Below are positions 13,626-36,913 of a stretch of DNA of 38,045 nucleotides, in pieces. The position numbers were made by a program, and so were the translations under genes. How positions within the stretch are numbered: the first letter of the stretch is position 1; each line of letters starts with the position of its first letter. Source of the DNA: a virus; the IMG/VR virus record IMGVR_UViG_3300037427_001300, positions 1-38,045 of that record. The stretch is one strand, 5' to 3'. The notes beneath the pieces are model-generated. The model was given only the letters and a program-made list of their open reading frames with translations, was not told the origin of the DNA and did no database searches.

Positions 13626-16013
13626 TTAAGAAGCCTTATACTGTAGTGCCCACTTGTCAGTAGCACCATTAATAATGTCGGTAAACCCTAGACGCTGGCT
13701 AGCAACCAGTACTCGTCTTTGGTTTGCAACCTCATAATCACTTTCAACCGTAACACCACGTAGACGTGGGATTACAAAGTTTCGCGTATTAACTGCAACA
13801 GCATAGAACTTGCTCACAGCTGCGGTAGCGAACTCATCAGAAACGATTACGGGAGACCCGTAAACCTGGCCTACTTGACCAGTAAGTTTCGTGGCGAGAC
13901 CTTCTACTTGGCTAGAGTCTGCGTATGCAGCATCTGAAATGAGATTATGATACTCTGCCACGGAAACGATGTAAACAACGTCCGAGGGGCGAATACCATA
14001 TTTACCCATGTTCTTACGAGCTGCTAATAGTGCAGCAGCAGTAAGCTTAGCTGTTCCATCAGCAGCGCCAAAGGCAGCACTAGACTGAGTCTTATCAGAA
14101 TCAGCGGCTGCAAGAGCAATAAGACCGTCAGGAGCCGCACCACCAGTACCAAAGGTACCGTCAGCGTGGTTACCAACGAGAATCATGTTCTCAACTGCAC
14201 GAGCGTGTGAACGAATAATACTTTCACGAATCAAAGGAAGAATCGGAATGATTGCATCCTCTTCAGTTTCGTTACCAAGATAAGATTGAGAAATAAGTTT
14301 CTTGGTTGAAAGAGTTCGCTCTGTCAAATCGTTACCACCGAACGGTGTACCATAGGTATCACCTCGTGATTCCAAGTTACCATGAGGGCTTGAGCCCGAA
14401 GCAGCTTGGTTAGTGGTAAACTCAGCGTATCCAGCATCTGGTAAGATGGGTAGGATTTGAGTCGCTGATTGCATAGCGATTTCACGGAAAAGCGGAGCCA
14501 ATACTAGCTCAACTTGAATATCCCGCTCGATATTGCTTGAAACGGTTTGTTCGAAATCAGCAGAAGAAACTTCCACACCTGAATGTGCGTTTACTTTCTG
14601 CATAACGTTCTTGGCAAAGGCAGTTTCATACCCTTTACCAGTAGCTTTCGCTAGAATATAAGCGTCGTTTACGTCGTGCTCAAAGGCTTTCTGCCAGTCA
14701 CTATTCTGACGATCGCCACCGAAAACTCGCTTAGACTCACGGATGTGTTGGATTTCTTGAGACTTCTCATTAATTTCTTTTCGAAGTTCCTCAACAACAT
14801 CTCCTAAGTCCTCTTGATTTTTTGAAACTCTTTGTTCCAAATCTGAGATGAGACGTTCCGCGCCTGTCGTTACGCCCTGTACTACAGCTTGCACCTCAGC
14901 TTTCTTTTCTTCGAGTTCAGCTTCTTCAGTAGCTTTTTGGACTTCAACATCAGCAGCGACTTTTTCAGCCTCTGCTTTAGCAGCCGCTTGATCTTCAGCC
15001 TGTTTCATCTGAATCTCAGCAGCAGTCTTACGAGCTACCTCTTTAGCAAACTCTTCGAGATTAAAGTCTTTGTCAGACATTATACCTTCTCCGAAGACAG
15101 CATTTGCTGTTCCTTTTGATGAGTCCTTATCGGACTGATCTATTTCAACATGAGGATCGTTAACAAACTGTTTTTTCCAGTCCGCATATTCTTCATCTGT
15201 GTCGAACGATTTCGCGACAGAGAAGATAGCGGATTGATTTGCGGGGACAGAAACAACTGACACCTCAAACAGTTCCGCATCCTTGATCCTTAAACCATCG
15301 GTTTCCTCTATGTAGTCAGCATCCTTAACTCGGAAACCGACGCTAAAAGCGCCTAGGATGCCCTCCTTCACCATCTCAGCGATTTTACCCGCAGATTTGG
15401 AGATTATACCATCGATCTTTAGTCCTCTATCAGTAACTTCAAGCCCTGTGGCTTTACCGATTGGAGTATTATAATCGTGGTTAAATAATAAGATAGGATT
15501 GTTTTTGAAATTTTCAAGACCGCCTTGTAACCAAGCGTCTTTTTCAATTACATCACCAGCCCTATCCGTATCATTTGTACTTGCATACCCCTGTATTTTA
15601 ACAGTGCCATCATCATCTGACTGCGCTTTAAATACAGAAGTTAAATTAAAAACTTTATTCATAGACTTATCTTCCTCTCTATCAATCTGACCAGCTTTCT
15701 TTCTAGCCCATGATTGTCCTGGATCTCCTCCCCAAAGTGCCCAAGCTATTCTGCCTGCACTAGGGTATCCTTTTTCACCGGGTGAGAAACCTTCACCTTG
15801 TTTATCGACTTCATGTCGACTAAAATAAGAGTGCATTCTCTTAACAGTTCTAGGAGATAAATTTTCTCTTTTTATTAGCTGGCTAGCTCGAGTGGAACCA
15901 ACATTAGTTCCACCTCTACCAAACTCTTTTCTCCAGTCTAATCCTTTTTGAGCTTCGTTTGCCATGCTCTCTGTAGGCTTGAAGTCGATATCCGATATTG
16001 CTTTATCCGCCAT
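13626..16013 (-). CDS. Prohead protease fused to major capsid protein
   Basis: One 795-residue frame carries three parts. Residues 1-115 form a basic N-terminal module with WRKEFGRGGTNVGSTRA, SPRTVKRMHSYFSRHEVD and GYPSAGRIAWALWGGD, often seen ahead of HK97-type proteases of marine phages. Residues about 118-275 form a U35-type prohead protease with NHDYNTPIG and LGAFSVGFRV, giving the expected His and Ser. Residues about 315-440 are a charged coiled-coil scaffold (delta-like) segment, and about 445-795 an HK97-fold capsid protein (ending TDKWALQYKAS). The ATG overlaps the portal stop. Fusion means protease and shell are made one-to-one and must be cut apart. A separate internal start for the capsid (MSDKDFNLEEF, near residue 312, preceded by GAAGG) is possible. 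Confidence 0.9.
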   Translation of the reverse strand: MADKAISDIDFKPTESMANEAQKGLDWRKEFGRGGTNVGSTRASQLIKRENLSPRTVKRMHSYFSRHEVDKQGEGFSPGEKGYPSAGRIAWALWGGDPGQSWARKKAGQIDREEDKSMNKVFNLTSVFKAQSDDDGTVKIQGYASTNDTDRAGDVIEKDAWLQGGLENFKNNPILLFNHDYNTPIGKATGLEVTDRGLKIDGIISKSAGKIAEMVKEGILGAFSVGFRVKDADYIEETDGLRIKDAELFEVSVVSVPANQSAIFSVAKSFDTDEEYADWKKQFVNDPHVEIDQSDKDSSKGTANAVFGEGIMSDKDFNLEEFAKEVARKTAAEIQMKQAEDQAAAKAEAEKVAADVEVQKATEEAELEEKKAEVQAVVQGVTTGAERLISDLEQRVSKNQEDLGDVVEELRKEINEKSQEIQHIRESKRVFGGDRQNSDWQKAFEHDVNDAYILAKATGKGYETAFAKNVMQKVNAHSGVEVSSADFEQTVSSNIERDIQVELVLAPLFREIAMQSATQILPILPDAGYAEFTTNQAASGSSPHGNLESRGDTYGTPFGGNDLTERTLSTKKLISQSYLGNETEEDAIIPILPLIRESIIRSHARAVENMILVGNHADGTFGTGGAAPDGLIALAAADSDKTQSSAAFGAADGTAKLTAAALLAARKNMGKYGIRPSDVVYIVSVAEYHNLISDAAYADSSQVEGLATKLTGQVGQVYGSPVIVSDEFATAAVSKFYAVAVNTRNFVIPRLRGVTVESDYEVANQRRVLVASQRLGFTDIINGATDKWALQYKAS

Positions 16014-18934: not shown

Positions 18935-19186
18935 TTAGTGTACGACTATTCCCGGGTGGGATAGCTCCTCTTGTGGGTTAGTTATTAATTTATTAGCTTG
19001 CGCTAATCTGTATAGGTGGGTGAATCCAGTAGCCATATTTATAGTACCTAAATCATTAGGATCTATCTCATCTAAAGATAGTTCTTCTTTTCCGTACTTA
19101 CGCTGTAGATCCATTAAAGTATTTTGACAGTCATCTAGTACTTGACTAAGCCAAAAATCATGTGGATCTAATTCATTGTCAATCAT
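18935..19186 (-). CDS. Small protein before terL
   Basis: This 83-residue acidic protein overlaps the end of the lipase gene by eight bases and its stop touches the terL start. It is mostly helical (HDFWLSQVLDDCQNTLMDLQ, FTHLYRLAQANKLI). It has no signal peptide, membrane span or recognised motif. Size and position just ahead of terL would fit a small-terminase accessory, but the sequence does not show the helix-turn-helix usual for that role. Function unknown. Confidence 0.6.
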   Translation of the reverse strand: MIDNELDPHDFWLSQVLDDCQNTLMDLQRKYGKEELSLDEIDPNDLGTINMATGFTHLYRLAQANKLITNPQEELSHPGIVVH

Positions 19187-19904
19187 CTTTTAATACGTTC
19201 CTATAAAGCATAGCAGAGTGATCATAAAAAGAGTCAAACCACTGACGCTTTTTCCACGCAGCTTTTCTTCCCCTCCAAGAGTCTTTAAAGCTCTGCCACC
19301 AAGTTAAATTTCTAATCTGGCCATGAGTATTAATATAATTTAAAGTACCCCCATCATAGAATAACCATCCCATTTTCAAAGGGACTCTTGGTACTATATC
19401 ATTATTATTAACAAAACGTTGCCAGTCACCACAGTCTCGTTGTATTCGTTCACAGAATACACGATTACCAACCCTAGGCTGTCCGTAAGTGTATAATTCT
19501 TTTACATTATAACCAGACTTTAAAAGAAACCCAGTCATAATAACTGCCATTGCACCGCCTAAGCTGTGTCCTGTTACTGCGATAGGTTTTTCATCATCAG
19601 GCAAATTCTTTATAACCTTGGGGAAGAGAGAAAAAGCCTCAGACCAGAAGCCCGAGTGAATTTTCTCTCCAGTTCCGGCGGGGTCGATACGCCAAAACTT
19701 TAGGTCAGCCGTTATATCTTTCAGTTGGGAAGGTTCTGTACCTCTACAAGATATAACTGTCGCTTCGGGGGTGAAGAACATCCACGCCTCTGCGTTATCC
19801 GACTCCATGAACTTAGCACGATCAAACGCAGGGTCGTTGGACTCTCCTGGATTACAATAGGCTAACTGAGCTAGCTTAGCGTATGTGTAATTCTTTGTTG
19901 TCAT
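19179..19904 (-). CDS. Class 3 lipase / alpha-beta hydrolase
   Basis: This 241-residue protein has the full class 3 lipase set: the ISCRGTEPSQ oxyanion strand (51-60), nucleophile elbow TGHSLGGA with S114, GQPRVGN (141-147), the acid D169 in NNNDIVPRVP, and H229 in YDHSAMLY. It should hydrolyse acyl esters such as glycerolipids or phospholipids. There is no signal peptide, so it acts from the cytoplasm unless holins release it. It lies in the operon with the holin-like protein and terminase. Membrane disruption at lysis is a reasonable inference; processing of lipid-linked host polymers is an alternative. Confidence 0.88.
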   Translation of the reverse strand: MTTKNYTYAKLAQLAYCNPGESNDPAFDRAKFMESDNAEAWMFFTPEATVISCRGTEPSQLKDITADLKFWRIDPAGTGEKIHSGFWSEAFSLFPKVIKNLPDDEKPIAVTGHSLGGAMAVIMTGFLLKSGYNVKELYTYGQPRVGNRVFCERIQRDCGDWQRFVNNNDIVPRVPLKMGWLFYDGGTLNYINTHGQIRNLTWWQSFKDSWRGRKAAWKKRQWFDSFYDHSAMLYRNVLKDD

Positions 19905-20530: not shown

Positions 20531-22309
20531 CTATTTTTCTATGGTATATATTTTTACTGGTTCAGACTTTCCTTTTACTAAGGCATCGTCTAAGTAAGTA
20601 TATTCATACCCATCAACTTGACTATATTCGGATATAATTAGATCCGTTTCATAAGTTTTACAACTACTTTCTAAGCGAGCAGCAAGATTAACTGCGTCCC
20701 CGATAACACTATAGTCAAAACGACTACTAGAACCCATATTGCCGACAACACACGGGCCAGAGTTGATTCCGACTCCCGTATTGATTTCAATGCTTCTTTC
20801 GGCCCTGAGAACATCATTCATTTCCTCTAATGCTACTCTCATTTCGATAGCAGCTTTGATTGCATTCTCTCTGTGGTTCGGATCATCTAAAGGTGCGTTC
20901 CAAAACGCCATTATACAATCTCCCATAAACTTATCTATAGTACCACCATGTTTTAAAATTATGTCAGACTGATTAGTTAGAAATATATTTATTAGCTCTA
21001 CCAGCCCTTCTGGGTCTTCTTTAAACTTCTCAGATATTGGAGTAAACCCTCTTATATCTGAAAACAAGAATGTCATTTCTCGTCGTTCGCCTCCTAGCCT
21101 TAAAAGTTTAGGATTATCCTGTAATTTCTTAACCATCCCTGGGTCAAGATAGTGCTCAAACTGTTTCTTAATTTGTTGTTTTAGCTTGAACTCCCTTAAA
21201 TAATTTGTAAAAGATGAAGCAGCCCAAATGATTACTGCAGCTACTATTCCAAAAGAAGGATCTAAAAGTATTTGTTCTGTAGTGAAAGCATTAAAGGTGT
21301 ACCAATAAGAACCTCCAATAGCCAGTATTAATGCGGGGACTGAAAAGTATACTTTAAAACTCAGTAGTAAAAGTATAAATAATCCACCTAACAAAGCTAA
21401 TAATTCTAAATCCTCTGCCCATTCAGGACGCGAAATATTGTTCCCTTGTGCTAAAGTAGAAAGTACAGAAGCTTGAATTTCATGCGGAGCTTTCAAACCT
21501 GCTGGAGTTGCTACTAAAGTGGAAGCACCCTTTGCTGTCACTCCTATTATAGCTGCGACGTTAGGCTGAGGACTCTGAAAGTATTCGATTGCAGATACTT
21601 CTTTGAACTTGGTATTCCAGTTTACCCAGATTCTTGCTTGAGAATCTGTTTTTATAATATCGAAGTTCTGTATCTTTAAAGCTTCTACTCCAATACTATT
21701 AGTTTTTATAGCGTAAGAAGGAGCTTGTGCCAGGTTTCTAAGAAGTTCCATGGAAAAGGAAGGGTACAAAGTATTGTTTATGTTAAAAACTAGTGGTACT
21801 CTTCTTACCAACCCGTCTAATTCATATGCTGTAGAAGTAATTCCATTACCAACAGCACTCTTCTCTATCTCTTCTACGTTATTTAATACTCCGTCAAAAG
21901 GAGTCAAGTAGGGTAGTGGGTCTTCTCCAATAGAAGCAGTACCAACATGAGGGGGCTTTCCTCCAATCTTTGAGTCTGTTGCTGCAGTAGCTACTACTAC
22001 AGAAGTCATACAATCTGAGAAATCTTTATCAGTATCGTATCTGTCTTTTTCTGGAAACAGTACAGTTACTCCAGTTACATTTGAACCAAGTAAACTACAA
22101 AAAGTATTGCGAGGCCAAGGCCATTGACCTATCTTATTTAAGCTTTCATCGTCTATAGATACAAGAGTTATGATCTCAGACTCTGTAGCCTCTATAGTTG
22201 ATATGAAATAGTCAAAAGTCTTTAGTCTTAGTACTTCAACAGGATAGGGATCTAAACTTTTAATACCAACTAAAAGTCCAATGAGCCCTAATCCTATTAA
22301 CCATCTCAT
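20531..22309 (-). CDS. CHASE2-domain class III adenylate cyclase
   Basis: The 592-residue membrane protein has an N-terminal membrane anchor and an extracytoplasmic CHASE2 sensor (about residues 25-295, with VSIDDESLNKIGQWPWPR). Three transmembrane helices follow at about 302-366, then a helical linker and a class III cyclase domain (about 408-592). Catalytic positions are complete: metal Asp D418 (FSDIRGFT) and D464 (FMGD), adenine-specific K460 and D532 (FDYSVIGD), and N541 and R545 (NLAARLE). The K/D pair predicts ATP and cAMP rather than GTP. The gene overlaps the hydrolase stop by a few bases. A signal-responsive cyclase in a phage structural operon is very unusual; it may perturb host cAMP signalling or respond to periplasmic cues. 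Confidence 0.93.
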   Translation of the reverse strand: MRWLIGLGLIGLLVGIKSLDPYPVEVLRLKTFDYFISTIEATESEIITLVSIDDESLNKIGQWPWPRNTFCSLLGSNVTGVTVLFPEKDRYDTDKDFSDCMTSVVVATAATDSKIGGKPPHVGTASIGEDPLPYLTPFDGVLNNVEEIEKSAVGNGITSTAYELDGLVRRVPLVFNINNTLYPSFSMELLRNLAQAPSYAIKTNSIGVEALKIQNFDIIKTDSQARIWVNWNTKFKEVSAIEYFQSPQPNVAAIIGVTAKGASTLVATPAGLKAPHEIQASVLSTLAQGNNISRPEWAEDLELLALLGGLFILLLLSFKVYFSVPALILAIGGSYWYTFNAFTTEQILLDPSFGIVAAVIIWAASSFTNYLREFKLKQQIKKQFEHYLDPGMVKKLQDNPKLLRLGGERREMTFLFSDIRGFTPISEKFKEDPEGLVELINIFLTNQSDIILKHGGTIDKFMGDCIMAFWNAPLDDPNHRENAIKAAIEMRVALEEMNDVLRAERSIEINTGVGINSGPCVVGNMGSSSRFDYSVIGDAVNLAARLESSCKTYETDLIISEYSQVDGYEYTYLDDALVKGKSEPVKIYTIEK

Positions 22310-22758
22310 CTGTAGAACCTATGTCGGCCAATAGCAACCGTAAATTCTAATTTGGATGCCCACTTAGGGTCTACATAGTTGGCATGGTAATGAGTAGCAC
22401 CTTCTGTAATATCAAAGTTTATTATAGAAGCTACTGCAGCAGCATTTATACTCTCTGTCCATGCTTTTCGATTAGTTGCTTCATCAGATCTACCGTCACA
22501 GTACCAAGAAAACTGGCATTTGTTACGAAGTATTCTGCCTTCTTTGCGTTTTGCTTGATAAATAACATCGCATACCTTATTTGGGTACTTTTTATGCTTA
22601 ACTCTGTTTAAAACTACATGAGAAATAGCAATTTTCTCAGCTACTGCTTGAGAACGTGCTTCATGGTATATATTTTCAGCTAAACATAGTAAATCTGTGT
22701 CATATTCAGCCAGTGCTGTTGCTGGAACCAGCAATAAGAGGAGTAATAAGTACTTCAT
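22306..22758 (-). CDS. SleB-type cell wall hydrolase with signal peptide
   Basis: This 150-residue protein starts with a hydrophobic signal segment (MKYLLLLLLLVPATALA). It continues as a Hydrolase_2/SleB-fold domain: AENIYHEARSQ (28-37, holding the candidate catalytic Glu), CQFSWYCDG (81-89), ATHYHANYVDPKW (121-133) and IGRHRFYR at the end. Members cleave peptidoglycan, commonly as lytic transglycosylase-like enzymes. Secretion by Sec would make it a signal-arrest or exported endolysin active in the periplasm. It overlaps the FecR gene above and the cyclase below by four bases each, so all three are coupled. Confidence 0.88.
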   Translation of the reverse strand: MKYLLLLLLLVPATALAEYDTDLLCLAENIYHEARSQAVAEKIAISHVVLNRVKHKKYPNKVCDVIYQAKRKEGRILRNKCQFSWYCDGRSDEATNRKAWTESINAAAVASIINFDITEGATHYHANYVDPKWASKLEFTVAIGRHRFYR

Positions 22759-23846
22759 TGCTGTGTAATACTGATTGTAACATCGTTACCATTATTAACA
22801 ATAATACTGTTTCTCTTTCCTTCGTCTTCAAAGAGAATATTATACCCATAAGTTGATTGGAGATCCAATCTTACTGAATTATTTGTTTGTCTATATAGCA
22901 CTACAAATTCCTCCTGCAAAAAAGTATTAAATTGTGTGTCAGCATCAAAGCCTTTACTAGTTCCTACTATTTCAAAAGTGGTACTATCTTGTAGAAAGTC
23001 TTCCTCTTTTGTTTCTAGGTCATCGAAGTTGTCTAGCAAGTCCATCAAGAAGTCTACGTTTAGAAAATCTATATCAAGTTCTTGAAAGTCTTCTAATAAA
23101 TCCTCTTCTAGTTCATCTTCTAATAGATCTTGATCTAACTCTTCGAATTCTAATAAGTCTTTTTTCTTATTCTGCTCTATTATCTCTTCAGGAACTACTT
23201 CCTTAGGAGGAGACACGATTAACATATTGTCAATCAAAGCCAAAGTTATATCCAAAATTCGTGGCTCTGAAGGAGCTGCTTCTGATGTAGAAACAGTAGT
23301 AGCCTGGTAAGGCTTAGTCAAAGATACTTGGCCTCCCATCGAAGCAACAAGTATTTCTCCAGATGCTATTCCGAATTCATCGGGCAGAAGTATAATTAAT
23401 GTCCGTCCGATCTCATCAACTGTGGCGGTAAAATCAGTGCCCCTTATAGCTATTTCTGCAGTAGGAGTCCTAATTTTAATATTTTCTTTATCTATCTTCC
23501 CTAAAGCACCAGTTATAAAACGAGCGGTGCCAGAGGCAAAGCTAAGAGCTAGTTTCGATTTGGAAGGGTTTGCATCATATACAAACTCGTCAATAACTAT
23601 CGAAGAATGCTCTGTTAATTTTAATATAGAGTCGTCTAAGAATTGTAATGCTACTCTACCTTGTGCAGTTCTAACATCGTCATAGCTTTCAATGCCGAAA
23701 TCTAATTTTGCAGTACTTTCCGCTTGTTTACGAAATACTGCTGCACTACCCTCTAATTCAGTAACACTACCTATATTTGGACTGGCACCGGCATTAGCAG
23801 CCAGCAGCAGAACCAGAATCGTTTTGAACAATACAAAGTGTCGCAT
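22755..23846 (-). CDS. FecR-domain secreted protein with acidic tail
   Basis: The ATG at 23846 was chosen because AGGGA lies just upstream and the product then begins with a clean signal peptide (MRHFVLFKTILVLLLAANAG, cleaved after about residue 21); a longer frame exists. The mature 363-residue precursor has a FecR-type beta domain (residues about 25-180, with VRTAQGRVALQFLDDS, IRTPTAEIAIRGTDFT). An acidic Leu/Asp/Glu-rich stretch (about 235-300) follows, and a C-terminal segment ends in NNGNDVTISITQQ, reminiscent of curlin repeats. FecR domains sense or bind in the periplasm and are often encoded beside CHASE2 cyclases, as here. It overlaps the curlin-like gene by 53 bases. Confidence 0.85.
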   Translation of the reverse strand: MRHFVLFKTILVLLLAANAGASPNIGSVTELEGSAAVFRKQAESTAKLDFGIESYDDVRTAQGRVALQFLDDSILKLTEHSSIVIDEFVYDANPSKSKLALSFASGTARFITGALGKIDKENIKIRTPTAEIAIRGTDFTATVDEIGRTLIILLPDEFGIASGEILVASMGGQVSLTKPYQATTVSTSEAAPSEPRILDITLALIDNMLIVSPPKEVVPEEIIEQNKKKDLLEFEELDQDLLEDELEEDLLEDFQELDIDFLNVDFLMDLLDNFDDLETKEEDFLQDSTTFEIVGTSKGFDADTQFNTFLQEEFVVLYRQTNNSVRLDLQSTYGYNILFEDEGKRNSIIVNNGNDVTISITQQ

Positions 23847-24681
23847 GACTTCCCTGTGTTCCACTACCTGTAGCATTTATATTAACCCAATCATTATTAT
23901 TTGTAGATCGTTGGATTAAATCTATATCCCAGTAGTCACCTGTTATATTTATAATTGAATTATGGCCTGTAGCATCGCTAGAAGCAGCGGCGTTTCCAAT
24001 ACCAATATAATCTAAAGTATTATTGTCTCCATCAATATCCCAGTCTTGATTAACGTAAGGAGAATTTACTGCTACTTTAAACACGTTATCATCGCCATCT
24101 ACATTCCAGTTAAGATTCATATTGTCTGCGTCAGCTCCGGTTACGTTTCCACTACTACCAAACAGATTGGCTAAATTAGAGTGGGTATAGTCACTAGCCG
24201 CATTAAAGAATACAATATTATCATCGCCATCAAAATCCCATACTATACTAGAGTCATTAGAATCTGCGTCTTCTGATATATTTACTGTGAATTGATTACT
24301 AGTACCTGCAACAATGTTGGTAAAGGTAAAATCATTCATATTCTTAATACCAGCAGCATTAAGCTGCCCCGTAAATACGTTGCTGCTACCATTAAATGTA
24401 AAATTATACGTTCCGTCGTTTCCGTTTAGGTCTGTTAAGAACTTGTTAGAACTACCTATTTGATCTAAGTTAAAGCTCAATCCCGTACCATTTATATTCA
24501 TGGCGGCATCAACAGTAGTAGTATTACTAGCGTTATCCGCAACTATATTACCCGAACCTAGCTGTTCTATATCAATCTGTGAATTAGTAGCATTAGTTTG
24601 AGTAATATAAATTTGGTTGTCGGCAGCATAACTATTAATCGCAAACCCAAACAGTACTAAAGCAAGTACCGAATATTTCAT
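23794..24681 (-). CDS. Curlin-like secreted fibre protein
   Basis: This 295-residue protein starts with a signal peptide (MKYSVLALVLFGFAINSYA). It continues with Asn/Gly/Gln-rich beta-repeats: NQIYITQTNATNSQIDIEQL and LGSGN follow the curlin pattern of Gln and Asn at fixed intervals with Gly turns. Later repeats are Asp/Asn-rich (VWDFDGDDNIVFF, WNVDGDDNVFKVAV, DWDIDGDNNTLDY), suggesting at least three divergent strand-turn units. A Cys pair ends the protein (CIVQNDSGSAAGC). CsgA-type proteins polymerise as amyloid on the cell surface after export by CsgG. It lies directly downstream of CsgG and upstream of FecR. Whether it forms fibres is inference. Confidence 0.75.
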   Translation of the reverse strand: MKYSVLALVLFGFAINSYAADNQIYITQTNATNSQIDIEQLGSGNIVADNASNTTTVDAAMNINGTGLSFNLDQIGSSNKFLTDLNGNDGTYNFTFNGSSNVFTGQLNAAGIKNMNDFTFTNIVAGTSNQFTVNISEDADSNDSSIVWDFDGDDNIVFFNAASDYTHSNLANLFGSSGNVTGADADNMNLNWNVDGDDNVFKVAVNSPYVNQDWDIDGDNNTLDYIGIGNAAASSDATGHNSIINITGDYWDIDLIQRSTNNNDWVNINATGSGTQGSHATLCIVQNDSGSAAGC

Positions 24682-24684
24682 TTT

Positions 24685-25515
24685 TTACTCGTCAGGAAAG
24701 GCCCAAAAGCCCTTCTCTTTACCTTCTTGTATGGTTTCGTATACTGCGGTCTCTACTGCTTTCTGCAAGGCTATTGCCATGCTTTCGTTTATAGTAGCTC
24801 CCGCCTCTACTTCTAACAGTTCCGTTCCTACTTCATAAAATCGAAATAAGTCTGCTGAAACTCCCACGGAAAGTAAACGTTTCGTAACCAGAACTTCAAT
24901 TAGAATTTCCCCGGTACTTACAGAGACAGTGCGTAACGAAATAACTACAATATCTTCTCTGTATTGTTTTGAAGCCGCTACTCCTAAATACCTGGCTCCT
25001 GTACCACCTGTTTTAATGTTTGTATCGTAACTTATTATCCCGCCTCTCATTAAGAGGCCCGCAAACAATAGGGGTTGCATCTTTACTTTTTCTTTGAAGT
25101 CCTTTCGAGTACTTCGTATGATCTGTCTTTCCTTTGTAATATGATCTATACCCACACGTTCTACTACTCGGAAAAAGTTTCCGTTTGACGTATGCTTTAA
25201 CGCTCTTATTAAATAGGCTTCCCCTCCTTGTGTTACTGCTGTTGAAAATAAAGCAAATTCAGAGTTACTCTTTCTTTGCCCTGTTAAATCTTTAAAAGAG
25301 CCCCCATACACTGCAACTACTGGTTGCTGTTTGGGAGCCGGAATCATTGCTAGCTTATCAACTTTTAAGCCTTCTACTTGTGCATCTTTAAACCTTTTAC
25401 TTACTATCTTTTCTGGTATCGACGAGCACCCGCTAAGTACCGTCATCGTCAGAGCCAAAGCTGCTAACAGGTACTTCAATCTTGGTACAAAGGTCATCTG
25501 GCTCGCAACTTTCAT
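24685..25515 (-). CDS. csgG: CsgG-like outer-membrane curli secretion lipoprotein
   Basis: The frame extends to 25524; ATG at 25515 is chosen because GAGAGG lies nine bases upstream, giving 276 residues, the usual CsgG length. A lipoprotein signal ends in LSGC (lipid-accepting C30). The mature part shows CsgG features: VVAVYGGSFKDLTGQRKSN, YLIRALKHTSNGNFFRVVER, the stretch RQIIRSTR, YDTNIKTGGTGARYLGV, YREDIVVISLRTVSVSTGEIL and a C-terminal helix pair (INESMAIALQKAVETAVYE). CsgG forms a nonameric outer-membrane pore that exports curli subunits. Its start overlaps the CsgF-like gene by about 80 bases, so the two are translationally coupled. No CsgE, CsgB or CsgD was found. Confidence 0.9.
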   Translation of the reverse strand: MKVASQMTFVPRLKYLLAALALTMTVLSGCSSIPEKIVSKRFKDAQVEGLKVDKLAMIPAPKQQPVVAVYGGSFKDLTGQRKSNSEFALFSTAVTQGGEAYLIRALKHTSNGNFFRVVERVGIDHITKERQIIRSTRKDFKEKVKMQPLLFAGLLMRGGIISYDTNIKTGGTGARYLGVAASKQYREDIVVISLRTVSVSTGEILIEVLVTKRLLSVGVSADLFRFYEVGTELLEVEAGATINESMAIALQKAVETAVYETIQEGKEKGFWAFPDE

Positions 25516-25948
25516 ACGTACCATCCTCTCCGTATTTACCTGGGTAAGTTTCCATAATCAACGTACCATCATCCAACGTGTAATATCTTATATAGTAATC
25601 CTCTGATTGAAAATAAAACCTTCCGTCTACGGATCCTGCTAGAGAGTCTTGTTCAAAAAGAGTCTCTACTAATTCTTTTGACAACCTTGAATAAATACGG
25701 CTTTCAAAGTTACGAAGAAATCTATTAATAGTATTGTTCTCAAGCTCTCGCTCTATTTCTTCTAACTCTGCATCAATCTTATCTTGTATGGCTTTCTTTC
25801 GGGAAGCTTCTTGATTTTCAATAGTCAAGTAGTGCTGAGACTGATTAATTCCCGAGAAAGATGGACTGTTAAACTTATGTGTTATCTGATCCGCTTCTAT
25901 CGGAGTCGCCATCAGTAACAGTAGTATCACTATTATACATTTGTTCAT
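25433..25948 (-). CDS. csgF: CsgF-like curli assembly factor
   Basis: The 171-residue protein begins with a signal peptide (MNKCIIVILLLLMATPIEA). Right after it comes THKFNSPSFSGINQSQHY, which matches the CsgF N-terminal motif (F-x-F-x-N-P-x-F-G-G) that inserts into the CsgG pore. A helical segment (EASRKKAIQDKIDAELEEIE, then FLRNFESRIYSRLSKELVE) and a C-terminal beta domain (GRFYFQSEDYYIRYYTLDDG) follow, again as in CsgF. It couples secretion to surface anchoring of curli. It overlaps csgG downstream and the membrane-protein gene upstream (74 bases). The C-terminal part is acidic and Cys-containing. Confidence 0.78.
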   Translation of the reverse strand: MNKCIIVILLLLMATPIEADQITHKFNSPSFSGINQSQHYLTIENQEASRKKAIQDKIDAELEEIERELENNTINRFLRNFESRIYSRLSKELVETLFEQDSLAGSVDGRFYFQSEDYYIRYYTLDDGTLIMETYPGKYGEDGTYESCEPDDLCTKIEVPVSSFGSDDDGT

Positions 25949-26168
25949 ACTTTAACACCACATCTACTTTTTGCTGAAGACGAATCATATCGTTGTCCAG
26001 CATCCTATTAGCATCAATGCATTTAATTAAAGCAAAGTGCATTTCCTCTAACTTAGGCTCTACTTTATCTGTTATAAATTTCCATACATAATAGATAAAA
26101 TAGCCCATTCCAACTGCAAGAGAAATGGCGAATCCAAACTCAGTAACTATAACGGTTAAATCATCCAT
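25875..26168 (-). CDS. Small membrane protein with coiled coil
   Basis: This 97-residue protein starts with ATG at 26168. A single N-terminal membrane helix (FGFAISLAVGMGYFIYYVW, about 11-29) precedes a helical segment (KVEPKLEEMHFALIKCI, LDNDMIRLQQKVDVVLKY) and an acidic, Asp/Thr/Ser-rich tail. It resembles the gene before it in layout, so the pair may have come from duplication. Such proteins are often called holins or phage membrane proteins of unknown function. It overlaps the CsgF-like gene, which suggests it is transcribed with the curli genes. Confidence 0.6.
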   Translation of the reverse strand: MDDLTVIVTEFGFAISLAVGMGYFIYYVWKFITDKVEPKLEEMHFALIKCIDANRMLDNDMIRLQQKVDVVLKYEQMYNSDTTVTDGDSDRSGSDNT

Positions 26169-26482
26169 TAGTCTCTTCTAACATCTAGCTTTACTTCTTG
26201 CGGTATCCCCTTTTGATTTGTACGATAGTTCTCAGCTCTCGCTATCCTATCTATAGGAGGAGTCAAATGAAGCGCACTACTTACAAGTAAATCAATTTTA
26301 ATTAACTCGTTACAGCCTACTCTCGCTCTATCCTCTAGCATTTTACAAAAAGAAGTTAAAGTCTCAATCTGATCTATAACTCCATCTAGTATCTGTTTTA
26401 ATACTGTGAAGATAAAGAAAGCCATAATCAAAGCGCCAGCAATAGGCGCTCCGACTTCTGATATGAAAGTAAAAACTTCCAC
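26168..26482 (-). CDS. Small membrane protein, holin-like
   Basis: The 104-residue product starts with GTG at 26482, which overlaps the stop of the preceding gene (TAGTG). One hydrophobic helix (VGAPIAGALIMAFFIFTVL) near residues 10-28 is followed by a helical stretch (IDQIETLTSFCKMLEDRARV) and a basic C-terminus (REDs such as PQEVKLDVRRD). Its layout matches the next gene downstream. A holin or a membrane partner of the secretion genes are both possible; I cannot choose. Confidence 0.6.
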   Translation of the reverse strand: MEVFTFISEVGAPIAGALIMAFFIFTVLKQILDGVIDQIETLTSFCKMLEDRARVGCNELIKIDLLVSSALHLTPPIDRIARAENYRTNQKGIPQEVKLDVRRD

Positions 26483-26763: not shown

Positions 26764-27225
26764 TTACTCACTTTTCAGAAGTTTGTCCATTAATGCCCCA
26801 TAATTACCTTGTCCGAATGGTACTTCGGAATTTATCATGACGTTGTTTTGTGTTTTAACAGTAGAGCCATTAGCTTTCTCCAGCTCTGTCTGTGCTTTTA
26901 TTTCATCCATGCGCATCTTATGCGCTAATTGCAGTAAATCTGCAAGGTCTTTATTAGAGTACATTTCTGTCTCTTCCGCTTCCTCTAGCTTTTTGTCAAT
27001 TAACGTGTCCATGACTTCCGCTAGTTTGAATCTGTTTCTATACCCAGCATCTAAATAAACGGAGTCAATATACTTCTTTACTTCGCGCTTGTTTAGGTAC
27101 TCGGACACGACATCGCGCGGTACCTTAAGTTCCGTGCTGACCGCATTGATATCGCCTTTCTCCAAATAGGCATTAGCTATCTCAATGCTTTCTGGGCTGA
27201 TTCGGGTTGTTACTTCTTTACTCAT
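26764..27225 (-). CDS. Small terminase-like DNA-binding protein
   Basis: The ATG at 27225 gives 153 residues; a longer frame with a TTG lies in the promoter and is rejected. An N-terminal helix-turn-helix (EIANAYLEKGDINAVSTELK, VPRDVVSEYLNKREVKKYI) is followed by long helices (RFKLAEVMDTLIDKKLEEAE, DLADLLQLAHKMRMDEIKAQ). The arrangement agrees with small terminase subunits, which bind packaging sites and regulate terL, and the frame opens the late transcript. It is 8 kb away from terL, so another DNA-binding role is possible. The -10 box ends seven bases upstream of the ATG, implying a leaderless transcript with no Shine-Dalgarno. Confidence 0.62.
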   Translation of the reverse strand: MSKEVTTRISPESIEIANAYLEKGDINAVSTELKVPRDVVSEYLNKREVKKYIDSVYLDAGYRNRFKLAEVMDTLIDKKLEEAEETEMYSNKDLADLLQLAHKMRMDEIKAQTELEKANGSTVKTQNNVMINSEVPFGQGNYGALMDKLLKSE

Positions 27226-27232
27226 AGCAGAT

Positions 27233-27262
27233 ATTATGACACAAAAAGACCTCAAGTGTCAA
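27233..27262 (-). promoter_or_regulatory. Sigma70-type promoter, apparently leaderless, for the late operon
   Basis: On the minus strand TTGACA (27262-27257) and CATAAT (27238-27233) are 18 bases apart. The predicted start, about 27226, meets the ATG at 27225 with no leader. A tandem CACTTGACACTTGAGG surrounds the -35, a possible regulator site. This promoter probably serves the genes from the small terminase to the cyclase. Confidence 0.82.
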
Positions 27263-27980: not shown

Positions 27981-28610
27981 TTAAAAATTATAGGCAACGC
28001 CTATTGAGTGAGTTGAGTCATCAACATCGTCTTCTGACCAAGTCCAAGTATAAGAGACACTTACTTTATCATCGATAAAGCTGTTCCCTAAAACAATACC
28101 TGCATCCATGTTAGAATCCGCGTTGCGACCAACAAAGCCCGAAAGGTCTAAAGGCATATCTACTATATCACTTACTGATACTGAACCTGCGTAGTAATTA
28201 GAATCATTATCCAGGTCTCTATAAATAGTGCCACTTACGGGCCCAAGCGATAAGGTTCCGTAGATTTCCTGAATATCGTCACCGATCTTCAAGTCGTCTC
28301 CGGTATAGGTATATTTAATATAACCCACATCTACTGAAACGTTATCATTTATATCTTTTCCGTAGCCGACTGTTAGGTCGATTTCGGCGGTTGTGTCGTC
28401 ATTGTAATCCACTTGACTTCCCCATGCGTTGGCATAAAAGCCTTTTTCTGTCGTAAGCCCTATGGAACCTTGTAAAACAGGTTTTCCATCGGATTGTGTA
28501 GCTCCCCTCCACACATAGTTGCTCGACATTCCAGCTGAGCCATCTATTTCTACCGCGTTAGCAGTAGTACCAATTGCTCCTAAGAGCATCGCAGTTGCGA
28601 TTTTTTTCAT
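27981..28610 (-). CDS. TorF/Gcw_chp-type outer-membrane porin
   Basis: The 209-residue protein starts at ATG 28610, chosen because it follows GGGGGAAG and opens a signal peptide (MKKIATAMLLGAIGTTANA); a longer frame begins at 28712 but overlaps the promoter. The mature protein is a beta-barrel with Gly-aromatic strands: SGMSSNYVWRGATQSDGKPV, GFYANAWGSQVDY, EIDLTVGYGKDI and closing VSYTWTW...GVAYNF with a terminal Phe. This matches the TorF/TIGR02001 family. A phage-encoded porin could replace or hide a receptor, alter uptake, or be a superinfection-exclusion protein. It is monocistronic: promoter at 28684-28712, terminator at 27895. Confidence 0.88.
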   Translation of the reverse strand: MKKIATAMLLGAIGTTANAVEIDGSAGMSSNYVWRGATQSDGKPVLQGSIGLTTEKGFYANAWGSQVDYNDDTTAEIDLTVGYGKDINDNVSVDVGYIKYTYTGDDLKIGDDIQEIYGTLSLGPVSGTIYRDLDNDSNYYAGSVSVSDIVDMPLDLSGFVGRNADSNMDAGIVLGNSFIDDKVSVSYTWTWSEDDVDDSTHSIGVAYNF

Positions 28611-28683
28611 ATCTTCCCCCACCTCGGAGCAAAAACGGGACCACCAAATAAATGTTCCCTCCATTTTTTCTCCATTGTTGGGT

Positions 28684-28712
28684 AGTATATCAAAGAAAGG
28701 AAAAAATGTCAA
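28684..28712 (-). promoter_or_regulatory. Sigma70-type promoter of the porin gene
   Basis: On the minus strand TTGACA (28712-28707) and TATACT (28689-28684) are 17 bases apart, a near-consensus promoter with a T/C-rich spacer. The leader of about 65 bases contains GGAGCAAAAACGGGACC-type repeats of unclear function. Confidence 0.88.
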
Positions 28713-29020
28713 GACTTATTTTTAACAAAGTGTATGATTAACTCCTCTAGAGTAGTTTGTACTTGAAGTACAGGAACTTCAGCAACTCCGAGGGCAAGTG
28801 CTGCAGAATATCTATGGTGTCCGTTCACTATATTGTTGGTTATATCCACAATTATAGGATTTGGGGTTGGAAACTTCTTTATAGCCTTACAAAGTAAGGA
28901 AGGTACCCTCTCGTGCTGAGAAGGTACCAACCTATCGGGGGCTATATCGAATTTTACGTAGTCAAAGTTATCTAAATCACATTCCCTAACTTGTGGGAGT
29001 TCCTTTCTTCTATAATTCAT
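28709..29020 (-). CDS. ParB-like domain protein
   Basis: The product has 103 residues. Its core (FPTPNPIIVDITNNIVNGHH, RYSAALALGVAEVPVLQV) is the ParB/Srx-like nuclease fold: a strand, NGHHRYSAA turn and the VAEVPVLQV strand. Small phage members of this type have been linked to nuclease, NTP-binding or regulatory roles. The ATG at 29020 overlaps the preceding gene by 11 bases. Its 3' end overlaps the -35 box of the porin promoter. Catalytic activity is not shown. Confidence 0.68.
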   Translation of the reverse strand: MNYRRKELPQVRECDLDNFDYVKFDIAPDRLVPSQHERVPSLLCKAIKKFPTPNPIIVDITNNIVNGHHRYSAALALGVAEVPVLQVQTTLEELIIHFVKNKS

Positions 29021-29306
29021 ACCGTACTTCCGTCTCTAGTTTATGTTTAAAGTCCTCGGTTTTAGAACCTTCCCACTTTCCCTTAAAAGTGAAAGATCCT
29101 CGTTTTATCTTATACCCTAACTCGGAGGAGTATCCCTCAGTTCGTGGGCCTGCTTCAATATAAAAATTTTTTTCAGTCTTATATCCTAATCTAAGATGAT
29201 GTATGTCTTCTTTAGATAGGAACTTGTATTCATTTTTATATTCTATATAGGGTGCCGCGAAGGCGGCTGGTGAGGTAAAAAGTATCAGGGCAATGAGTAC
29301 TCTCAA
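29010..29306 (-). CDS. Small secreted protein, possible outer-membrane strand protein
   Basis: The 98-residue protein starts with TTG at 29306; AAGGAG seven bases upstream decides this start. A signal peptide (MRVLIALILFTSPAAFAAPY) precedes an amphipathic, Lys/Glu/Tyr-rich region (KFLSKEDIHHLRLGYKTEKN, then TFKGKWEGSKTEDFKHKLET) reading as beta hairpins with alternating polar and aromatic residues and ending in EVRYEL. It may be a small barrel or a periplasmic lipid-binding protein. It is the first gene of the minus-strand late block, with an extended -10 upstream. Function unknown. Confidence 0.6.
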   Translation of the reverse strand: MRVLIALILFTSPAAFAAPYIEYKNEYKFLSKEDIHHLRLGYKTEKNFYIEAGPRTEGYSSELGYKIKRGSFTFKGKWEGSKTEDFKHKLETEVRYEL

Positions 29307-30032: not shown

Positions 30033-30350
30033 ATGAGGAAACCTAACTACACGCCCGAGATGATCGCTGTCATCAAAGGCACAAACGAGCGACCCTTTAA
30101 CAAGGCAATCGCCACAGACATTGCGAGAAGGATTGAGAAATCACCTCGCTCTGTGATCGCTAAGATCAAAAGCATGGGGTTACCCTATGCCGTCCAACGT
30201 CCTGTTAGAAAGGATGGCTCTGCTATCTCTCGAAAAATCGAGACGGTGGCGGCAATAGCCAAAGCTCTCGATATGGATTTAGACGATCTTGACGGATTGA
30301 CTAAGGCACCTCGATCAGCGTTGATCGCTTTGTTAAGGGAGATTCCTTAA
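30033..30350 (+). CDS. Small DNA-binding-like protein, paralogue 1 of 3
   Basis: The 105-residue protein has an N-terminal predicted helix-turn-helix-like unit (NYTPEMIAVIKG, then ATDIARRIEKSPRSVIAKIK) and a second helical part with KAPRSALIALLREI at the end. Two later genes (33851 and 36608) share the order NYx(D/P)E, a K-S-x-R/K-S-(I/V)-I-x-K-(I/L) segment, an arginine-free linker with (V/I)xK and a final alpha hairpin (GL(E)KAPK). The segment SPRSVIAKI looks like a recognition helix. A transcription regulator or nucleoid-type role is plausible. SD: CGGAG five bases before ATG. Confidence 0.72.
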   Translation: MRKPNYTPEMIAVIKGTNERPFNKAIATDIARRIEKSPRSVIAKIKSMGLPYAVQRPVRKDGSAISRKIETVAAIAKALDMDLDDLDGLTKAPRSALIALLREIP

Positions 30351-31688: not shown

Positions 31689-31790
31689 ATGAAAAAACTT
31701 AAAAAAATCTTACTCACGGCTTATCTGGTTTATTCCATATCTGCCGATCTACTAATCCTCGGAGGAATCTTATGGTTGATCTTCAACTAA
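31689..31790 (+). CDS. 33-residue hydrophobic peptide ahead of PPK2
   Basis: ATG at 31689 opens a 33-residue frame with basic start (MKKLKKILLTAYLVYS) and two hydrophobic stretches, ending at 31790 in the PPK2 gene's first codons. It contains the GGAGG for PPK2. It may be a leader peptide that couples or controls translation of PPK2, or a small membrane protein. No Shine-Dalgarno is present. Confidence 0.45.
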   Translation: MKKLKKILLTAYLVYSISADLLILGGILWLIFN

Positions 31791-32401
31791 ACAAACTCGA
31801 GCAGCAACAAGCTCGACTAAACAAAATCGCGGAGGGGCTCACCGGCCCCGTTGCGGTTGTCCTAGAGGGGCGCGATACGGCTGGCAAATCTGGAACCATT
31901 CGCGCATTAACTCAATATCTACCGCCTCGGCTTTTTTCGGTTGTTCTATCTACCAAGCCAACGGACGGCATGATGAAAAACTGGCTTGGCCATTGGGCGG
32001 GTAAAATGCCCGAGGGAAAGCAAATCGTTTTCTTTGATCGCTCATGGTATTCTCGCGCATTGGTTCAAAAGATTAACGGTTGGTGTTCTGATCTTCAATA
32101 CTTTAATTTTATGAATTCAATCGAAGCATGGGAAGCTAACAAGGGCGTAAACTTTGTTAAATTCTGGCTCTCGATTTCTGAAGACGAACAAGCGCGAAGA
32201 ATTGAGGAGCGTAGAATCTCGCCTCTGAAATATTGGAAGCTATCGCCTAATGACGAGCGCGCACTTTCCTACTATGACGAAATGACCCTCTTAAAAGAAA
32301 AGGTGATTTCTCGCGGCGGCTGGGAGACAATCGACTTCAACGATAAAGCTCAAGGCAGATTAGAATTACTAACAAAACTTAACACACAACTAGGAGCATA
32401 A
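31772..32401 (+). CDS. PPK2-family polyphosphate kinase
   Basis: The 209-residue enzyme carries the PPK2 signature: Walker A EGRDTAGKSGTI (32-43, K39), TKPTD, Walker B VFFDRSWYSR (86-95, D89-R90), and the lid RRIEERRISPLKYWKLSP (142-159). PPK2 enzymes transfer phosphate between polyphosphate and nucleoside mono- or diphosphates. At 209 residues it is compact compared with bacterial members, with a shortened N-terminus. GGAGG six bases before ATG marks the start. In a phage it could draw on host polyphosphate to recharge nucleotides for replication. The class (ADP- or AMP-preferring) cannot be decided from sequence. Confidence 0.92.
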   Translation: MVDLQLNKLEQQQARLNKIAEGLTGPVAVVLEGRDTAGKSGTIRALTQYLPPRLFSVVLSTKPTDGMMKNWLGHWAGKMPEGKQIVFFDRSWYSRALVQKINGWCSDLQYFNFMNSIEAWEANKGVNFVKFWLSISEDEQARRIEERRISPLKYWKLSPNDERALSYYDEMTLLKEKVISRGGWETIDFNDKAQGRLELLTKLNTQLGA

Positions 32402-33763: not shown

Positions 33764-33792
33764 TTGACAACTTCCTTAAAATGCCTCATAAT
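33764..33792 (+). promoter_or_regulatory. Sigma70-type promoter of paralogue 2
   Basis: TTGACA (33764-33769) and CATAAT (33787-33792) are 17 bases apart. It lies right after the previous gene's stop. The spacer CTTCCTTAAAATGCCT resembles that of the promoter at 33233. Confidence 0.85.
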
Positions 33793-33850
33793 AGTTGTCA
33801 TGGAATTGAGAAAGAAATTAAAAAAATTATTTAAGTTTGGGAGAACTAAT

Positions 33851-34183
33851 ATGACCGACACACAAGTTAAGAACTACACTGACGAAATGGTTGTTTCCAT
33901 GGTCGATCAGTACACCGCAACCCCGACTCGCGCAACAGTTGAAGCGCTAGCAGAAGAGTTCGGGAAGTCAGCACGAAGCATCATAGCGAAGTTATCACGC
34001 GAAGGTGTCTACGTAGCGCAACCTAAGACCACCAAATCTGGTATGCCAATCGTTCGCAAGTCGGACATTGTAGGAAGGATTGCAGGACACCTCGGTGTCG
34101 AGTTGGAATCTCCAACTTTGGTCAAAGCGTCTAAAATCGACCTTCTTATGCTCGAAGACGCTATTATTAAAGCTACTTCGTAG
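33851..34183 (+). CDS. Small DNA-binding-like protein, paralogue 2 of 3
   Basis: The ATG at 33851 (SD GGAG seven bases upstream) gives 110 residues; an in-frame ATG at 33800 would place the start at the transcript's first base. NYTDEMVVSMVDQY, TRATVEALAEEFGKSARSII and AKLSREGVY mirror the genes at 30033 and 36608. The predicted helix-turn-helix is followed by a basic linker (KTTKSGMPIVRKSDI) and a second helical unit. The three paralogues suggest a family of phage regulators or DNA-binding proteins. A hairpin (34193-34217) follows the gene. Confidence 0.72.
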   Translation: MTDTQVKNYTDEMVVSMVDQYTATPTRATVEALAEEFGKSARSIIAKLSREGVYVAQPKTTKSGMPIVRKSDIVGRIAGHLGVELESPTLVKASKIDLLMLEDAIIKATS

Positions 34184-36476: not shown

Positions 36477-36621
36477 GTATGAATTCTATAACTGCGTCAC
36501 GGAGGACAAAACTGTAGTATTATTACCTAGCATCACAGTAGAATGGTGGTACGGTTTTACAATTAAGTTCGGTTTCCTATTTTGGGTAGCCCAACTGGAG
36601 TACAATGATGGCAAACTATAG
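36463..36621 (+). CDS. 52-residue aromatic-rich peptide
   Basis: The frame runs through 36355-36621; a TTG at 36463 preceded by GGAGGGG, or ATGs at 36442 and 36451, could start it. The product is rich in Trp, Tyr and Phe (FKYEFYNCVTEDKTVVLLPS, EWWYGFTIKFGFLFWVAQLE). It has a hydrophobic central stretch and ends just after the start of paralogue 3. Start uncertain; function unknown. Confidence 0.45.
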   Translation: MKRFKYEFYNCVTEDKTVVLLPSITVEWWYGFTIKFGFLFWVAQLEYNDGKL

Positions 36622-36913
36622 TGACGAACAAGTTGAGTACATGGTTGAGAAATACAACTCCACGCCTTCGCGTGAAACAGTAGAGGACTTAGCGAAAGAA
36701 TTAAGTAAAAGTCCGAAATCAATCATAGGAAAGCTAGCACGCGAAGGCGTGTACCAGAAAGTAGAGTATATCTCTAAGACTGGTGAAAAACCAATAACGA
36801 AGATCGAGATTGTGCGCGAGATAGCAGGACAATTGGATCTAGACGAAACACATTTAATGGGCTTAGAAAAAGCCCCAAAAGGAGTATTAAAGCTATTATG
36901 CGACAATATATAA
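36608..36913 (+). CDS. Small DNA-binding-like protein, paralogue 3 of 3
   Basis: The ATG at 36608 is favoured over 36605 because GGAG then lies seven bases away. The 101-residue protein has the family pattern: NYSDEQVEYMVEKY, SRETVEDLAKELSKSPKSII, GKLAREGVY and the terminal GLEKAPKGVLKLL. SKSPKSIIGKL is the likely recognition helix. It is preceded by no strong promoter of its own and lies in a compact cluster. The role is unknown beyond resemblance to regulators. Confidence 0.72.
   Translation: MANYSDEQVEYMVEKYNSTPSRETVEDLAKELSKSPKSIIGKLAREGVYQKVEYISKTGEKPITKIEIVREIAGQLDLDETHLMGLEKAPKGVLKLLCDNI

Follow-up and report, generated by a model that had tools for sequence, protein, structure and literature searches.

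A putative curli-type (type VIII) secretion module in a T5-like marine siphovirus

Curli-type modules in marine phages

Genes for curli-type secretion have been described in several marine phages. Zaragoza-Solas et al. (2020; PMC7029224) reported CsgF and CsgG in pelagimyophages and proposed 'sibling capture'. Buchholz et al. (2022; PMC9004378) modelled the CsgGF of phage Melnitz and stated that csgA and csgB are absent, whereas the GenBank record of Melnitz annotates two curlin genes. In podoviral and myoviral pelagiphages, Wittmers et al. (2022; PMC9599517) found the whole set together with FecR and a cyclase, and they reported viral curli proteins from each of the 65 GOV2.0 stations. The IMG/VR virus record IMGVR_UViG_3300037427_001300 (38,045 nucleotides, a linear fragment with a GC content of 40%, analysed in full and called the window here) carries a further member of this kind of module. 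A first-pass annotation of the window had named three genes at 23794-25948 as a CsgF-CsgG-curlin set and regarded substrate, partner and pore together as unusual. The full set in pelagiphages (PMC9599517), its presence in the GenBank records of HTVC008M and Melnitz, and at least 585 viral contigs with a CsgG relative speak against that view.

The locus is, with moderate confidence, a phage-borne type VIII secretion system (T8SS) module of the known pelagiphage kind, carried by a T5-like marine siphovirus and used for export and surface modification. At the level of sequence, the evidence supports a CsgF-CsgG-curlin export set carried by the phage. In order of transcription, the minus strand encodes the small terminase (TerS), the transmembrane (TM) proteins TM1 and TM2, CsgF, CsgG, the curlin-like protein, a FecR-domain protein, a SleB-type hydrolase and a CHASE2 cyclase (Table 1). 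The module forms a co-directional block between the small and large terminase genes. The first-pass annotation placed the three csg genes, which lie on this strand, correctly and in order, and missed the rest of the conserved block (TM1, TM2, FecR, SleB and cyclase).

CsgG matches PF03783 over nearly the entire profile, and its residues 24-276 align with the solved E. coli-type CsgG. Inspection of the sequence reveals an LSGC lipobox, in agreement with the earlier description of a full-length lipoprotein. The FNSPSFSG motif that had been pointed out in CsgF, after a signal peptide, was likewise seen. CsgF exceeds the Pfam cut-off, and its N-terminal pore-binding motif is kept in 10 relatives. 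The CsgF family profile finds the solved CsgF (6l7a, E = 3.5e-5), mainly through this motif; PDB searches with the single CsgF sequence and with the single curlin sequence returned nothing meaningful. CsgE had been noted as absent, and no PF10627 match was found within the 38-kb linear fragment; pelagiphage and alphaproteobacterial modules are likewise reported to lack CsgE (PMC9599517). The coding overlaps claimed for the three genes hold in part: CsgF and CsgG overlap by up to 92 nucleotides, whereas CsgG and curlin are separated by 3 nucleotides. The longest curlin open reading frame (ORF) overlaps FecR by 83 nucleotides.

Several observations argue for curlin repeats in the putative substrate. 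Curlin_rpt (PF07012) is matched by 9 of 17 orthologues (best E = 8.6e-6). The window protein has 11 GxxN motifs, compared to a mean of 4.2 in shuffled sequences (p ~0.001), and the family alignment has invariant Q and GxxN positions. The AlphaFold model consists of strand-turn-strand repeats with GxxN between the strands (predicted local distance difference test score, pLDDT, 73; predicted template modelling score, pTM, 0.77), and its best matches in a viral structure library are named 'Curlin associated' (5.9e-6). The curlin profile weakly matches the major curlin subunit 8enq (E = 0.038). In the hidden Markov model searches that the first-pass annotation had suggested, CsgG and CsgF pass their Pfam cut-offs, and the curlin profile matches only orthologues of the window protein; the repeat claim is supported by the family, and the window protein alone remains below the cut-off.

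Table 1. Features of the module and other annotated genes in the window.
Feature	Position	Strand	Evidence
TM1, 104 residues, one TM helix then probable coiled coil, conserved C-terminal DxRRD	26168-26482	-	phrog_18771 2.6e-17; alignment; hydropathy; no Pfam domain
TM2, 97-residue TM1 paralogue, overlaps CsgF start	25875-26168	-	phrog_18771 1.9e-23; alignment
CsgF, signal peptide and FNSPSFSG motif, 171 residues	25433-25948	-	PF10614 3.4e-9; family profile finds PDB 6l7a
CsgG, outer-membrane pore lipoprotein, 279 residues	24685-25524	-	PF03783 1.6e-49; PDB 3x2r 1.2e-42
Putative curlin-repeat protein of 295 residues with signal peptide, candidate for the exported subunit	23794-24681	-	family matches PF07012; AlphaFold model; viral fold matches
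Periplasmic FecR-domain protein, signal peptide	22755-23876	-	PF04773 1e-11; alignment
SleB-type cell wall hydrolase/endolysin inside module	22306-22758	-	PF07486 8e-23; phrog_938 endolysin 8e-22
CHASE2 sensor and class III nucleotidyl cyclase	20531-22309	-	PF05226 1.3e-30; PF00211 6.7e-20
Small terminase	26764-27255	-	phrog_3802
Prohead protease and major capsid fused, one 795-residue ORF	13626-16013	-	Peptidase_S78 3e-17; Phage_capsid 1e-6
Class 3 lipase	19179-19904	-	PF01764 1.1e-24
TM/coiled-coil protein, 80 residues	20207-20449	-	
Polyphosphate kinase 2 (PPK2)	31772-32401	+	PF03976 1.9e-45
Two probable outer-membrane beta-barrels	27981-28712; 29010-29306	-	Gcw_chp 9.7e-19; weak Phage_OMP below cut-off
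Three small proteins, helix-turn-helix-like	30033-30350; 33764-34183; 36605-36913	+	paralogue-like by eye; weak IF2_N matches in two

Probable signal peptides were identified by inspection in curlin, CsgF, FecR and SleB. The FecR protein has PF04773 as its only domain, and neither a cytoplasmic anti-sigma part nor a TM helix was found in it (a partner sigma factor was not searched for). It is predicted to be a soluble periplasmic protein, and the label 'iron regulator' is therefore unsupported. Its structure model was poor (pLDDT 49) and was not used. The SleB-type hydrolase is 49% identical to an annotated phage endolysin. The cyclase keeps regions that align with solved adenylate cyclases, and its output is likely cyclic AMP. 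The PADLOC name PycC (6e-28) was rejected for this protein: it reflects homology common to class III cyclases, and solved adenylate cyclases are the better match. Compared to a related contig (L010), the ratio of nonsynonymous to synonymous substitution rates (dN/dS) is lowest for the cyclase (0.05), followed by part of CsgG (0.06), FecR and SleB (both 0.07) and curlin (0.12); all five are under purifying selection.

Linkage of the module in viral and bacterial loci

A first scan found 28 viral loci, nearly all with the order TM-CsgF-CsgG-curlin-FecR-cyclase. A CsgG profile scan then found at least 585 viral CsgG relatives, and the best 80, a sample that leans toward close relatives, were analysed. 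Among those loci with enough flanking sequence, CsgF and a TM protein accompany CsgG in 64 of 64, curlin and FecR in 60 of 60, and the cyclase in 32 of 39, being missing or moved in the other 7. The gene-order survey that the first-pass annotation had called for therefore revealed no relatives with CsgG alone: CsgF, CsgG and curlin always occur together where the flanks suffice. The window's order from CsgF to cyclase matches that of the viral T8SS module. A CsgG match labelled 'Salmonella phage' was set aside as a 1.5-kb unverified contig.

Linkage was also recovered from the upstream side. In a scan seeded with TM1, CsgG was present in 68 of 80 loci; of the remaining 12, 11 break off within the module or shortly before it. 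Only one (L156:3515-4781) truly lacks csg genes; there TM1-TM2 directly precede a phage lysozyme, the sole intact exception to the TM-csg linkage. The module lacks recognizable TM genes in two divergent loci (L026 and L029), and the TM pair is therefore near-constant, not universal. Within the phage collection, TM2 was found in HTVC008M and Melnitz and nowhere else; these are also the isolates with CsgG.

Wittmers et al. (PMC9599517) placed a 'histidine kinase', sometimes two, upstream in the viral module. From their position directly upstream of CsgF, we infer that TM1 and TM2 are these genes. Pfam, alignments and hydropathy revealed no kinase domain in either protein, each being approximately 100 residues long with one TM helix, and the published label thus appears to have no support. 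Neither protein matched a Pfam holin family, and their weak Pfam matches (YvrJ 0.14 and others) were judged to be noise. The TM pair is a phage-specific component that is directly testable.

Bacterial genomes provide a related arrangement. On the Hyphomonas sp. TMED17 chromosome (L038:8447-14470, in a 705-kb contig), CsgF-CsgG-curlin-FecR-CHASE2 cyclase occurs among ordinary bacterial genes, without TM1/TM2 and without an endolysin. FecR and a CHASE2 cyclase beside curli genes are therefore not purely viral. Other Hyphomonadaceae have CsgF-CsgG-curlin only. In the CsgG tree, the TMED17 sequence falls within the viral clade, at the end of a very long branch (1.94), and it may represent either the donor lineage or a back-transfer. 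The phage-type module with TM1/TM2 is also found on contigs binned to Pelagibacter, Flavobacteria, Synechococcus, Planctomycetes and others (L033-L037, L039, L041, L042, L045, L052, L059, L077 and L082), which are probably misbinned phage DNA.

Proposed role and alternatives

In the favored export reading, the Sec pathway would export the curlin protein late in infection. The protein would then cross the outer membrane through the pore of the CsgG lipoprotein, which would hold CsgF in its mouth and have no CsgE as a gate. The exported curlin would form surface fibers that coat or link infected cells. FecR and the CHASE2 domain may pair as a periplasmic sensor through which the cyclic nucleotide levels of the infected cell are set, TM1 and TM2 would be inner-membrane parts added on the phage side, and expression of the module would be timed near the lysis genes. 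Least certain is the purpose, which could be to change the cell surface before lysis, excluding other phages or holding sibling cells near the burst. Coating, exclusion and a lysis pore had already been suggested as possible roles in the first-pass annotation. The signal peptides and lipobox fit export, and pore, partner and substrate are never separated in loci with enough flank. A substrate that is constant in the set favors real export over a pore-only role.

Some results weigh against this reading. The window curlin protein has no Pfam match above the cut-off (Curlin_rpt 10.5 bits, cut-off 20.7), and its model gave nothing significant in a PDB fold search (best E = 0.06). Though Melnitz has the module, Melnitz-infected cells showed no clumping, and the phage CsgF models of Buchholz et al. 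differ from E. coli CsgF (PMC9004378).

The neighborhood of the module introduces lysis as an alternative. Of 33 distinct loci with complete flanks, 20 have a lysozyme or SleB near the module, and 80 of 81 endolysin matches are on the module's strand. Either a lysozyme with a holin-like or other small TM gene lies upstream, the same lies downstream, or SleB sits inside the module, as in the window. The association is only suggestive, as the endolysin search seeds were drawn from these neighborhoods and the counts are uncorrected for kinship among mutually related loci. Together with the place between the terminase genes, the lysis neighborhood argues for late expression of the module. In a second reading, CsgG (with CsgF) would breach the outer membrane together with the endolysin, TM1/TM2 would be holin-like, and curlin would plug or time the pore. 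Buchholz et al. (2022; PMC9004378) proposed a related role for Melnitz, and the locus with TM1-TM2 before a lysozyme and no csg genes fits it as well. However, curlin and FecR are always kept and the cyclase usually, which a bare pore would not need. A separate holin-like gene is present in many loci (the '3TM holin' label rests on a Pfam match below the cut-off, 0.095), and TM1/TM2 lack the holin match noted above. No endolysin was detected near the module in HTVC008M and others, and the vicinity of lysis genes is a frequent insertion site for accessory genes. We favor export with surface modification; the lysis pore ranks second and is unlikely. A broader proposal is equally tentative: several marine phage lineages may carry a lysis-linked curli system in which TM1/TM2 connect secretion and FecR-CHASE2-cyclase to an endolysin/holin cassette, coordinating fiber export with bursting.

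An uptake or signaling role is more doubtful still. Here an open CsgG pore would admit nutrients or signals, FecR-CHASE2-cyclase would sense them and adjust host metabolism, and curlin would be a plug or ligand, not a fiber. The linkage of FecR and the cyclase to the pore and the lack of a CsgE gate in the record are consistent with this role, and uptake was suggested by Zaragoza-Solas et al. (PMC7029224) and Wittmers et al. (PMC9599517). Nevertheless, the cyclase is missing or moved where curlin never is, and a passive pore needs no CsgF. Least credible is that the module was taken from a bacterium and has no current use to the phage; homologous csg genes do occur in Alphaproteobacteria, but the number of viral contigs with CsgG, the fixed order in several phage lineages and the purifying selection disfavor it.

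If the phage does make curli, both the adhesion among infected bacteria in the ocean and the competition of viruses for these cells would be altered. Beyond the published module kind, new here are the occurrence in a third, T5-like lineage of phages, an endolysin enclosed by the module, endolysin proximity elsewhere, near-total linkage across viral CsgG loci, the lack of support for the 'histidine kinase' label, and the Hyphomonas locus without the TM pair.

Phage identity and comparison with known systems

Past the cyclase, the minus strand encodes a small TM protein, a class 3 lipase, the large terminase (TerL), portal, a protease-capsid fusion, tail genes and a tape measure of 1583 residues. 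The best matches of TerL (48-50% identity), portal (40%) and tape measure (a partial match) are T5-like phages of Vibrio, Pectobacterium and Escherichia. From these T5-type proteins, the virus is read as a T5-like marine siphovirus; the presence of the module in it shows movement between unrelated phage lineages. The same TerL type adjoins the module in six related contigs (L002, L003, L004, L010, L012 and L013). In one of these T5-like relatives (L012:7430-8454), apparent iron-sulfur cluster assembly genes (IscU/IscA-like) were noted by eye between TerS and the module. In the window, additional envelope or lysis functions may be encoded between the cyclase and TerL by the genes of the lipase and the 80-residue TM/coiled-coil protein. 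Elsewhere in the window are a phage-encoded PPK2, two more probable outer-membrane beta-barrels and three small paralogue-like proteins. No tRNAs were found in the 38,045-nucleotide record.

The E. coli curli system (csgBAC-csgDEFG) shares CsgG, CsgF and a putative curlin-repeat subunit with the window. In the window, no CsgE was found, the putative curlin repeats have diverged, and FecR, the cyclase and the TM pair are added. In the Burkholderia BiofilmReg operon (PMC5192318), whose disruption abolished biofilm, a FecR-domain protein with a signal peptide likewise comes immediately before a CHASE2 sensor. In that operon, CHASE2 feeds a histidine kinase, the FecR protein carries LysM, and there are no csg genes. 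The Hyphomonas sp. TMED17 locus has the same block from CsgF to the CHASE2 cyclase but differs in its bacterial surroundings and in the absence of TM1/TM2 and endolysin. HTVC008M and Melnitz share TM1-TM2-CsgF-CsgG-curlin-FecR-cyclase with the window, and their CsgG is 42-44% identical to that of the window; they are T4-like myoviruses (Kyanoviridae) with a second curlin gene between FecR and the cyclase. The pelagiphage T8SS module (PMC9599517) has the same order of small upstream gene(s), CsgF, CsgG, curlin, FecR and cyclase, and likewise no CsgE, CsgC or CsgD. In contrast to it, the window belongs to a T5-like siphovirus, the proteins encoded upstream are small TM proteins lacking kinase domains, and the window has one curlin gene and a SleB endolysin between FecR and the cyclase.

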